From Oryzias latipes (lineage: Eukaryota > Chordata > Actinopteri > Beloniformes > Adrianichthyidae): a DNA stretch of 64,000 nt. The stretch is from positions 11,095,950-11,159,949 of the forward strand of contig NC_019872.2 in NCBI RefSeq assembly GCF_002234675.1, written 5' to 3'. Position numbers and translations under genes: made by a program. Below the pieces are notes generated by a model. The model saw only the letters and a program-made list of their open reading frames with translations. It was not told the DNA's origin and did not search any database. Positions 16,128 to 28,100 of this stretch are shown one piece after another (the first letter of the stretch is position 1; every line of letters begins with the position of its first letter).

Positions 16128-19100
16128 TTAGAGTGAGGAGGAGCTCTGGCTATAATGTTTGAGCAGCAGCTGGTCATAGTCAGCCTCGGAAGCAGGGGAA
16201 ATTGAAGGGGGTGAGCTGCCATCAGAACTCAGAGATGAGTCTCTAAAAGGAGAAGGTGGGGTAAGAGCCATCAGCTCCTCAGTATCTCTGGCTCGCCTGC
16301 CAGCCACGCGAGTTCCAGCCAGGTGCTCGTAGATCTTACTCGCTGGATTGTCACAGAAGTTGGGGACAGCCATCACCTCAGCGTATGTGGTGGCCGTGGG
16401 GGGGCCCTGCCTGCTTCTGGGCGTGAGGTACTGAGGTGCACCCTGGGAGGGATCCCCATCAGGTAGGGCTCCGGTGCAGGGAGAATTAACGGTGGCTCCT
16501 CCTGGAAGCATCATGGTGTTTAGCTCGCTGATGTTGGCCGTGAAACGGTTAACCACGCAGCTTATTTGGTCCATGATTGTGGCACCTTGAGTTTGGCCAA
16601 TGTCACCCACACTTATGATGCTAATATCTCCATCATCAACAAAACCAACAGCCTGACTATTCTCCCCGCCTCTTCGTCTGATCCCAGCAGGATGCTCGGG
16701 TACATATGTTGGTAAAATCTGTGCCTCCTTGTCGCTGTCTTCTCTCTGGCAGACTTTTGCCTTTGACGAATGTGCACCGACGTCGGTCTGAGGTGACTGT
16801 GAAGGATAGCAGGGCAAAGTCTGAGACACCTGTGGCTCCTCACACTCCTCTTTTGAACCACTGTCCGCAGGAGCATCTTCCTTTGAAAAGGGCTTGATGA
16901 TGGCTGTCTGATTCACTTCAACGGCTTCTTTCTTCTTGATGTGGAATGACATCCTCTTCCATAGGTTTGGTCTGTAGCTGCGCTCGTTCTGTCCCCAGGT
17001 CACCGATTTTCCATTGGAGCTGCAAAATATGGAGAAAATTGTGTGCTGGTAACCACACGACTTGATAATATTGTATTTTTTAACATTTTCTCAGCCAGTG
17101 TCTCTATTATCCTCTGTTCTATATTTTGCTTTTTCATGTCATTTTTTAATGTCTTTCCATTTTCTTTTATCTTCCCTAGAAAGAGAAATCCTTAAAGGCT
17201 GCAAGTTTCTTTTGGGAATATGTAACCCAAATGAGGTAGTCTTTTCTCAGTACAAATTATTTTTTCATTCTGGCTTTATTCTAAGCCTGGTGCAACCATT
17301 GTAGCTATGACAGCCTGAATGTTCCAATGTGAACAGTGTTTTGACAGATCTGTCACTTCCATGACATAGTTTACCACCCACAAAAACTAAAGACAAAAAG
17401 AAAAAGAAAATTCTGGTGGCTATGTTTGAGGCACTTTGAATTGGATCTGTGTATAAAAGGTACTGTCTTGCCTGCTTTTATCCATACTTCATATAGTCTT
17501 CGATTTTTCCATACCTGACATTATCCTGGGTAGATCCGCTCCGCCGGAACAAGTTGGCCATACTGCTTGAAGATTTGCCAGTTTTGGCTGCTTTTTTGGC
17601 ATTGCCTACATGCATGCGCACAACTGTGGACGTGGTGAAAGCGCTGCGGACATTCTTTTCAGGTTTGGCAAGCATGATGTACACCTGATTAGAAAAAAGG
17701 AGCAACAAAATGCAATCATTTATAGCATCACAAGTTGTACAAATATAATGGTAATGAAAATTTGTGGTTTCAAAACTTTTGGTTTTAAAATCATCTACAC
17801 AACTTGTAAAGATCAATAGTGTTTCAACAGAATACCAATTGGGTTTCAGAACACCCTGCAGCACAAAAGCTGATGTTACAAAAGTTGCAAATCTCATCAG
17901 TATTGATGTGGATACTGAGAAGTATGGATCAATTTTCATAAGATTTCATAAGAGCTGTTGTATAATGCTACGTTCAGACCGTGTTGCGTGTTCAACAACG
18001 TGCTAAAAGTACATTCTTGAGCACGTATTTAGCCCAGTGCTTCTCAATTATATTTTGCAAGGACCCCCCCTAGGAAAAAGAAAATGTTTTGCCTAAGGTG
18101 TACACACTGGACAAGCAGGGAGGAGATTCTTTCTGTATTTATTTTGCTACTATTTACTTGTGCATGTCCACCACCTACAGTTAGAAGATGTTTGGTGCGA
18201 AATGTCAAAGTGGTACGAATCTCGCAAAGTTTTTTCTTTCACAGCTCTACTCTATATAGCAGACTTAGTGTCATATAATTCCGGCCAGACACAAACCACA
18301 ATTAATAATTTCTCCTCCATGATCAATTTTCAAAGTGTTAGCTCTTTATTTAAGAAAAAGAGAAGCCGTCCATATGTCACTATCAAATCCGAGCCCCTTG
18401 TCTCAGTACAGCCTGGTTTAACTTTCAATGAATGTTCAATGGCGGCACATTTTGTACGTAGAAACTTGTGTAGCGACGTGTGGACGCAAGAATTTTGATA
18501 GAGGGAGCACAAAATGCGTGTTTGCATAGACTTGAACACGCATTGGTTGCCTGGTTTGATAACTCTGTCCGATAAAAAAGTGAGGGTATTCTCCCAATTT
18601 CCTCTGGGTTGTGTTTAGGGCTCCCTGTTAATTACTACAAATAATACTTTCTTTAACAAAATCTGTTTTAATGTGCTTCCAGATTTTATGGTAATTTACT
18701 GTTTATATTGTAATTCAGTTTGTCAAACTTGGTAAAGTCTGCTTCCGCACCCTCTGCAGTGCACCTTAAAAATTCTCACTGAAATGGAAGTAACAAATAT
18801 TTTTGAAATAAAAGTTATGTTATTTATATTGTTAATCAAAATTAAACATCGTCTTCAACTTTAAAAACTAAGTCCAGATGACAACCTTTTTTGATTTGAT
18901 TTTAAATAGTTTATTTCAAGCAATCAAATAAGTATAATACACAACAACAATATAATCATCAGTTATCCATTCATACAATGACGAATCAAAATTAAGATAA
19001 TTAGACATATTAATAAATTTTGCTTGAAAGGGAGTGGAAGGAAGCAAATTTATATAATCCCACCTTTACCTACCCATACCGTAAACATTTAATTACATGA

Positions 19101-25100: not shown

Positions 25101-28100
25101 TCCTGCTCCGCTGGCTCTCCCCTCTCTTTCACCCCTCACAAGGGGGATGTGGGGGAGGAGCGCTTCGTGCCCACTGATGTCTTGACCCGGCACCCGAGCT
25201 CTGCGTTCGGGCTCCGGTGCCAGTAGACCGAGTGAACCTCTCTGAGCAGAGCAGCCTGATTTATTAATATGTCTTTGAGGGGAGGATGCTTTGTTACGTG
25301 TGCGTTTTGTTATGTGTGAGAATTAGGACTGCGAGCCGACCCGCCACTCTGGTTTAGCGGCTGCCGGCTTCAGGAGAACCGTGTGTTCGAGCAGATCTCG
25401 GGCCGCCAGCACACACAGCGGCTTTGGGGCGGTGTGTGAGCTTTTCAAAGCAGAAATGTCGCTAAGTCCTTAGAAACTGTTCAAACAATCACTTGAAATT
25501 GTGTTTCCAGTTGTGCCCCGACAAAATAAAGGCTGATGTTATTCCCACACATTTACGTGCAGCCAAGATGCAGATTGCAGCTTTTCCCACATGGTCCGGG
25601 ATTTTGTGTCCATCAAGGCTAATGTTGTGAGCACGTGTTAGTCACTCCTAACACTGGCTTCTTCCAGCTCCGTTCTTCCACAGAAAAAGCACTGACCACA
25701 CGGATTAAAAATAAAACGATGAGCGAACAGGCGCTTCATAATATTCATAACATTAATAAAAGCAAGTTTGGAAGTTCGTGTCGTATATTACCGAGCTGCT
25801 GCCTAAAATGTATGTGGCAGCAGTTTGTTTACAACGGGACTCATTTCCCCTCCGGTATTTTCAACACTACTGCGCATGCCCAAATGATATTTTCCGACCG
25901 AAAGTGTGACCCATGTAAACGTTTGTTCTAATCGGAAAAAAGTTTTCTGTGCCCATGTTCACGGTTGAATTTTAACCCGACCATTGATCCGATCGAGATA
26001 TTTTGCCCATGTAACCGCGGCTAATGACGTGAATAACAGGATAAACAGAGCAACGTTGTGTACTCTGCAGTGCACCTCCACCTGAAGGCCACAAACCACT
26101 CGTTCGAGGACAGTGAAGTCCGAAATTTAGCCAGAGAGAGAGGATGGTTTGAGCGTAGAGTGAAAGAAGCCATCTTTGTCAAGAAGGATAAACCTTCTCT
26201 TAACAAGAATGGTGGTCTCAGGTTTATTCTTCCATCCATCTACGGCAGTGTTATGAAACCCAAACAAACCAAACCAGTTCCGCCTGGGTCGGTAACAGCT
26301 GAAAGAGATTGGGAAGGGTTGGGAAGGGTAGCCACTGTCTCCCTAGCCCCAGCTGAGGACAAAGGACTCCTAACGACCCGAAAACATGAAGTCTAAGTAG
26401 ACAATTCAATCCAGTTTCAGGTCTGACTCCTCCCCCATGAGCAGATATAAACCAGCTCTTTTATCAGCTTTTTCAGAATTGACAAAGCCTTTTGGATAAC
26501 AGGTGAAACGTCTTCAACTTTAAAAACCAAGTCCAGATGACAACCTTTAAACCTAATAATATGATTAAACATCGTGTTGCTATCTTGGCCTTGTCACTCT
26601 TAAAAAAGACATTGATATTGAAAATGTTCTTGTATTTAAGTCTTACCTTCGGAACAAACATGCAGCAGAGAGCCACTGTGGCACTGAGGCTGACACTAAA
26701 GCACATGGTTATGATTTTGTAGTTGGATCCGAAGTAAATGGGAACAAAAGCCAGCCAGATAATGCAGGTGGTGTACATGGTAAAGGCGATGTACTTGGCC
26801 TCATTAAAATTAGCTGGTACATTACGGGTCTGCAAAGGGAAAAGGAGAAAATAGGTTTGTTTTTAGGGAAAGCAGAGTAAAGTATTTTATCAAGATCCAA
26901 GATAAATCTTCTTATAAATTCACTAGTTTTATTAAATTACCTTAAAGGCGTAAAAGGTGCAGCTGAGGATGAGCAACCCATTGTAGCCCAGTGGTGCCAC
27001 CACCCCCAAAGTGGTCAGGTTGCAGATTAAATGCACTTCACGGATACTGGGGTAGTCGTAGATCACCTTAAAAGAAATAAACAAAAAAGTTGTTGAAATT
27101 GTAATAAGGAAGTTAAATTACAAAAAAAAACAAAAACAAAAAAACACACACCTGTGGGGGCTCAATGATAAGAAGTGCCACAATAATTCCCAGCTGCAGC
27201 AGTATGAGTAGGAAGGCAATGACCAATTGTGCGCAGGCGGACATAAAGCGAGGTTTCTTGGTGCAGATCTTCTTTTTGCTGCCTGCCAAGATGCGTGCTA
27301 TACGGTTGGTCTGGATCAAAAAATAAATAAAACGGTTAGGCATGCTTTAGTTACATAGGATGTGGATAATACCCATACTGATTCATGGGAATAATCCTTG
27401 CCCCTGATTTTATATATCAGCACCAACCCACACACTCACCATCAATTTGTGCTTGCTTTCTTAGCAACTGGATATCATCCAATTTCTGAAAGTGGCTTTA
27501 TTGTTTCCAAGATTTATTTTGGCTTGCCAAAAAATGCTAAGACTATCAGAAATTATAACTGTAATGGCAGACAGACATCAGTGATGAGTAATCCTCCCCT
27601 TGCCAACAACAATTTTGACGAATAGAATGGAAATGAAGAATTTCTAAAGGTATTTTTGTCTGACCATGTCATTTGACCAACTCTAATTTTTTTAAGTTTA
27701 TTTAGTGCAAAAATATACCTTTCTCAGGTCTTGAATGATCAACCAAAAAACTTACAACTTGCTAAATGTATTTTTTAATTCATCAACATAATGTCTTTAA
27801 CTTTTTTTATGGAACACTGGCCCTTAAGGTCTGGACTTTTGTGATAAAATTATATTTTAAAAAGAAATGCTACTTTACAGTTGTTACTTTGTTTGGCTCT
27901 TTCAGTGGTTTAAATGAAACACAAAAGTGTCATTTGTCACACACAGAATTACACTTAAAAAAATCAACGTTATCAACATTGACAAAATTTACCTTAGTGA
28001 CGAGAGCAGAGTAGCTCATGGCGGGGGACAAACCAATTCCCAGTCGCTGCAGGTAGCAATAGATAATGTGTGGCTTGGCAATTAGGCTGAAAGTGCATAG

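Follow-up and report, generated by a model that had tools for sequence, protein, structure and literature searches.

Rotifer copies of Penelope are described as having pseudo-long terminal repeats (pseudo-LTRs) and duplications that measure 8, 9 and 10 bp; one copy lacks a duplication and acquired its 5′ junction via microhomology (PMC3846280). Another study describes a bias towards AT-rich targets, as well as a hammerhead motif in the pseudo-LTR of a lizard Penelope-like element (PLE) that is consistent with other PLEs (PMC11167929). The motif is associated with the group but does not define it. The interruption of one transposon by another is an established method for ordering insertions, as two further studies illustrate (PMC2517846, PMC5657132), and the same logic yields a partial order at the single locus described here.

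This locus is a 7,735-bp tract (positions 18841-26575) in a 64,000-nucleotide stretch of Oryzias latipes DNA (NC_019872.2, forward-strand positions 11,095,950 to 11,159,949), which we call the window. The tract is very probably a nest of dead mobile elements that was made by separate insertions into an intron of a grm5-like gene. A preliminary description had announced a four-layer nest with a readable insertion order. Its own account was only three deep. We find a fourth layer possible in view of flanks of 23% G+C, and the order proves to be partial. In the left branch a PLE, perhaps followed by an AT-rich insert, precedes an inverted-repeat element, which in turn precedes a long terminal repeat (LTR) retroelement and a palindromic element. 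The latter two cannot be placed relative to each other, nor can the left branch be ranked against the right.

Two elements within an inverted-repeat element

The inverted-repeat element at 19285-21536 has inner arms that match at 85 of 97 positions (BLAST E 3.5e-19). Its left part (19285-19730) opens with the terminal sequence AGGGTGGTCCTT and closes with a copy of AACTT (19726-19730). Directly adjoining is a 419-bp sequence on the plus strand, TGTCATGG...CGTGACA (19731-20149), whose far side abuts a second AACTT (20150-20154). This sequence sits between the arms of the inverted-repeat element and resembles known solo LTRs in its TG...CA ends, the inverted TGTCA/TGACA, the 5-bp duplication, a TATA-like box (TATATAA, 19900) and an ATTAAA signal (20064). 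One difference is the lack of an internal region, which precludes naming the family.

The right arm of the inverted-repeat element, which together with the second AACTT spans 20150-20370, ends in GGACC (20366-20370), where a palindromic element begins. This element, TACGACGG...CGTCGTA, is 1156 bp long with arms of ~200 bp (20371-21526) and is followed by another GGACC (21527-21531) and by ACCCT, the last bases of the right terminal repeat of the inverted-repeat element (together 21527-21536). The palindrome arms match at 196 of 203 positions, five of which belong to the flanking GGACC/GGTCC. Joining the flanks of the palindrome produces AAGGACCACCCT, which exactly inverts the terminal AGGGTGGTCCTT that starts at 19285. 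A stronger sign of insertion than this rejoined terminus is the geometry of the arms. With the palindrome and one GGACC removed, ~50 nt separate the right terminus from the inner right arm, similar to the 27 nt on the left side, whereas with the palindrome in place the distance is ~1.2 kb. Identity between arms runs with the nesting, from 196/203 in the palindrome to 85/97 in the surrounding element, although arms of one element can differ from birth.

Rates of chance repeats were sampled by 20,000 random two-breakpoint draws from the window, with draws less than 300 bp apart left unscored. An exactly abutting 5-mer repeat arises at a rate of 0.0018 and a 12-mer repeat within 5 nt at 0.0001. 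Thus, the AACTT and GGACC repeats, as well as the 12-bp repeat ATTAAACATCGT that bounds the whole tract, are beyond chance. The sequential entry of the LTR and the palindrome into the inverted-repeat element is well supported, and both the solo LTR with its AACTT duplication and the palindromic element with its GGACC duplication are as the preliminary description had them.

The most probable course of events begins, in this branch, with a non-autonomous inverted-repeat DNA transposon, recognizable by its arms, that would have entered an AT-rich stretch. An LTR retroelement would later have inserted into its interior, leaving the 5-bp duplication that we observe, and would then have been cut to one LTR through LTR-LTR recombination. 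The right terminal repeat would have been the target of a long-armed palindromic transposon, as the observed duplication and geometry suggest.

The palindrome may retain, in its interior, part of a transcript from an autonomous element. It contains a donor-like site, CAGGTGAG, at 20670, followed near 20765 by TTTGCAG, which was picked out by eye; a scripted acceptor pattern found none. AATAAA occurs at 21106. One 83-aa open reading frame (ORF) of the palindrome, the only ORF of the inverted-repeat elements that was searched, gave no Pfam match and no transposase. Separately, sub-threshold miRNA-like Rfam matches in the palindrome arms were rejected as hairpin look-alikes; the best reached E 0.00031 and 36.8 bits, where the gathering score is 70.

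A second insert interrupted in one arm

The right branch consists of a second insert, here termed the composite (23511-26044), that lies between two coding pieces. Coding on the reverse transcriptase (RT) side stops near 23510; at ~26045 coding resumes in an open piece. The composite contains an array of 21-22 bp units (23516-23688) that pairs with itself, as well as two pairs of arms. Arms A (23734-23835 and 24528-24623) match at 77 of 94 positions, and arms B (24108-24262 and 24688-24801 plus 26024-26044) at 128 of 139. The left edge is either 23511 or 23516. The right edge, previously set at 26041, reads better as 26044 because arm B ends there.

Near its end, arm B is broken by the TAGCCGCG inverted-repeat element (24806-26022), and at the same place the alignment of the two B arms has an 11-nt gap. 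The inverted ends of this element (24801-24827 and 26001-26027) match at 25 of 27 positions, and AAT (or TA) stands on both sides; a 3-mer occurs in this way by chance at 0.02. The interruption of arm B supports the order of PLE, then composite, then TAGCCGCG element, and agrees with the earlier statement that the composite was itself broken. Separately from the events in the left branch, a foldback-like insert would have split the two PLE coding pieces, and the TAGCCGCG element would subsequently have entered one of its arms.

The inverted ends of 19285-21536, 20371-21526 and 24806-26022 are shared with non-autonomous DNA transposons of the foldback and miniature inverted-repeat transposable element (MITE) types, as are the short flanking repeats of the latter two. 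Superfamily names for the inverted-repeat elements were considered, but none is claimed, and no transposase was found in the single ORF mentioned above. Of the five CATGTAAAC sites in the window, counting both strands, four fall within the TAGCCGCG element, close to either end, and are possible subterminal binding motifs.

The outer element and its gene setting

In the window, the plus strand contains the repeat ATTAAACATCGT at exactly two sites, 18841-18852 and 26564-26575; this repeat is the candidate target duplication of a PLE. Inside it, a direct 40-nt repeat marks the two ends of the element (18850-18889, plus strand, and 26509-26548; 39 of 40 positions identical) and is read as a pseudo-LTR remnant. 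The last three bases of the left 12-bp copy, CGT, overlap the start of the 40-nt repeat and hence are common to the duplication and the element. A frameshifted coding remnant with RT motifs occupies 21703-23510 on the plus strand (46% G+C). On the same strand, 26045-26563 comprises the open coding piece, which we read as a putative PLE 3′ remnant, and the right end region with its 40-nt repeat. Going by the usual layout of PLE proteins, the coding pieces on either side of 23511-26044 would be parts of one PLE protein, and a GIY-YIG core may be missing between them.

The RT remnant includes the motif FRYVDD. Four translated segments from two frames, joined by X into a single query, match Pfam RVT_1 with an E-value of 2.4e-7 and 31.1 bits, above the cut-off of 29.6. 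In NCBIfam this joined query also hits three bacterial RT families, the best at E 1.4e-8, and each hit scores far under the cut-off of its family. The RVT_1 match shows an RT, whereas the PLE type is a putative assignment that draws on the end repeats and the known build of such elements, and no database match gave it. The earlier claim of a PLE bounded by a 12-bp repeat is thus upheld for the repeat and the RT, and less firmly for the type. Because the direct end repeats, the RT and the target duplication fit, the decayed element at 18841-26575 is probably a PLE, antisense in the grm5 intron. The copy looks dead: the three reading frames of its RT remnant contain 13, 18 and 23 stops. In-frame deletions were considered and are not claimed. 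The element would have retrotransposed into the intron in antisense orientation and left the 12-bp duplication; the repeats are observed, and target-primed reverse transcription would account for them.

With the Penelope/Poseidon/Neptune group the element shares its RT remnants, its pseudo-LTR-like direct repeats at the ends and a flanking duplication. The duplication, at 12 bp, is close in length to the 8, 9 and 10 bp given for rotifer Penelope (PMC3846280). In contrast to described PLEs, the present copy has frameshifts and stops and an end repeat of only 40 nt; its 3′ piece yields no GIY-YIG match, and Rfam gives no hammerhead match. No hammerhead ribozyme appears among 15 Rfam matches at E up to 10 in 18000-27600, and nothing in the whole window, hammerheads included, reaches the gathering score.

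The gene in the window is a metabotropic glutamate receptor on the minus strand. Translation of the exon at 26650-26850 gives mGlu5 as the top PDB match (E 8.2e-35), compared with E 9.8e-32 for the best mGlu1, and also matches Pfam 7tm_3, so that by best sequence match the gene is grm5-like. The printed splice junctions place the intron between 26646 and 17685 (8,962 bp), and the nest makes up 86% of it. The intron adjoining the nest has 36% G+C. The RT remnant lies on the plus strand and is therefore antisense to the gene.

Weighing the alternatives

Several observations weigh against separate insertions into a PLE. At the right end of the inverted-repeat element, 11 of the 12 terminal bases are readable with the palindrome still present, and therefore the rejoined 12-bp terminus is by itself a weak sign that adds little beyond GGACC and the geometry. 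The inverted-repeat element lacks a clean target duplication, exhibiting only a loose AAGT resemblance. The outer junctions of the composite have no common 5-mer and no target duplication of at least 5 nt. Hence, of the duplicated targets reported earlier, AACTT, GGACC and ATTAAACATCGT stand, but none is clean for 19285-21536 or for the composite. Similarly, the inverted-repeat element that was said to have hit the PLE does have its inner arms, though the hit was possibly not direct, and the composite that was said to break the PLE coding region does lie between two coding pieces.

Protein searches are also unfavorable to the PLE assignment. Single pieces of the RT region have no Pfam match over the cut-off (best RVT_1 E 0.1), the 119-aa 3′ piece has no Pfam match of any kind and so none to GIY-YIG, and no credible relative emerged from the PDB for three RT-region pieces or for the 3′ piece. 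In viral_contigs, the RT, 3′ and N-terminal PLE pieces gave 11, 3 and 7 pattern stretches, of which 0 were confirmed; in genome_contigs the 3′ piece gave 91 stretches, again with 0 confirmed, and further pattern scans of both collections yielded none. Searches of phages and plasmids with the whole nest, and of plasmids with one RT piece, also found no confirmed relative. None of these four collections would be expected to include fish DNA, so little weight attaches to the misses. Five end sequences were used as literature strings; at least one of them occurs in 30 papers, the 20 papers listed contain only two of the five strings, and none of these 20 has a title on transposons, titles alone being judged. 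A literature search on PLEs with DKG and Neptune had no match.

A different history would have the inner elements enter the inverted-repeat element, or the composite, at another locus, with the loaded element then jumping here whole. This would give the same relative order, and the data in the window are compatible with it. The inverted-repeat element has no clean duplication here, and its last 11 right-end bases are intact beyond the palindrome, so that a loaded element might still have been recognized. Such a jump is nonetheless unlikely. The palindrome places the right inner arm ~1.2 kb from the terminus, and the TAGCCGCG element lies ~20 bp from the end of the composite, arrangements that would each be expected to hinder later jumping. 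It is far less probable still that the entire 7.7-kb unit moved whole as a single composite transposon. One 12-bp repeat does bound it, but at least two inner elements have abutting duplications of their own inside the arms of another element, and the unit mixes element classes, with RT remnants, LTR signals and inverted-repeat elements side by side. Separate insertions into the intron thus remain by far the preferred explanation.

Two parts of the nest allow more than one reading. One is the make-up of the composite, whose inner inverted repeats alternate in the order A1 B1 A2 B2 (23734-24801) and do not nest. It is possible, if somewhat doubtful, that two related foldback elements are present, one within the other, as the two pairs of arms and a 49-nt direct repeat bracketing arm B1 suggest. 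However, a simple insertion would produce nested pairs, two foldback elements would need a shared right end, and no 4-mer is common to the surroundings of 24108 and of the composite right end. We consider it rather improbable that 23511-26044 is one foldback-like transposon family in which the self-pairing array at one end and two interleaved inverted-repeat pairs are carried as a unit. Were this so, non-autonomous DNA transposons would gain a new structural variant, whose layout could come from template switching during transposition. The other ambiguous part is the AT-rich stretch that separates the RT from the PLE end repeat. Because the inverted-repeat element sits in this stretch, it may not be a direct hit on the PLE. 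The left half (18890-19284) has 25% G+C and the right half (21537-21690, its right edge approximate and set by composition) has 17%. Singly, 1.2% of 5,542 overlapping stretches of the left length outside the nest are as low, and 0.3% of 5,590 of the right length. The halves joined (549 nt) have 23.0% G+C, a level to which none of 5,512 overlapping samples of that length from outside the nest falls. Base composition thus makes it somewhat probable that a separate AT-rich insert entered the PLE and then took up the inverted-repeat element. Such an element would perhaps have been the next arrival after the PLE, landing between its end repeat and its coding region. Counting against this are the narrow margin (the minimum elsewhere is 23.3%), the choice of the right edge by composition, and edges that have no target duplication and share no repeat of at least 7 nt; in a narrower search, their longest common string is the T-rich 6-mer TTTTTG. 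The narrow margin and the missing duplication, together with a location where a PLE leader would be, lend some plausibility to the reading that the stretch is the PLE's own 5′ leader and the nest three deep. We regard this as the less probable of the two, as the leader would have 23% G+C against 46% in the PLE coding remnant, and no stretch sampled outside the nest is as low as 23%. The stretch was also considered as the 3′ end of a long interspersed nuclear element, a resemblance that is not claimed.

The case is an ordinary one that changes no general view, since nested transposons and their ordering by interruption are already well known. Its value is that an insertion order is readable at a single locus, and that exact empty-site sequences can be supplied for relatives: AAGGACCACCCT, GTTAACTTTGAG and ATTAAACATCGT once.

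Other repeats in the window

The window contains further repeats outside the nest. A dispersed repeat relates 30164-30314 to 61302-61453 in direct orientation (83%) and 30319-30401 to 61147-61230 in inverted orientation (84.5%). Another relates 10538-10774 to 57601-57877 through two stretches that are 79% and 74% identical. A possible further MITE at 34174-34706 has inverted ends of ~40 nt (87.5%) that lie ~450 nt apart, and a perfect (ATCT)42 microsatellite occupies 3410-3577.

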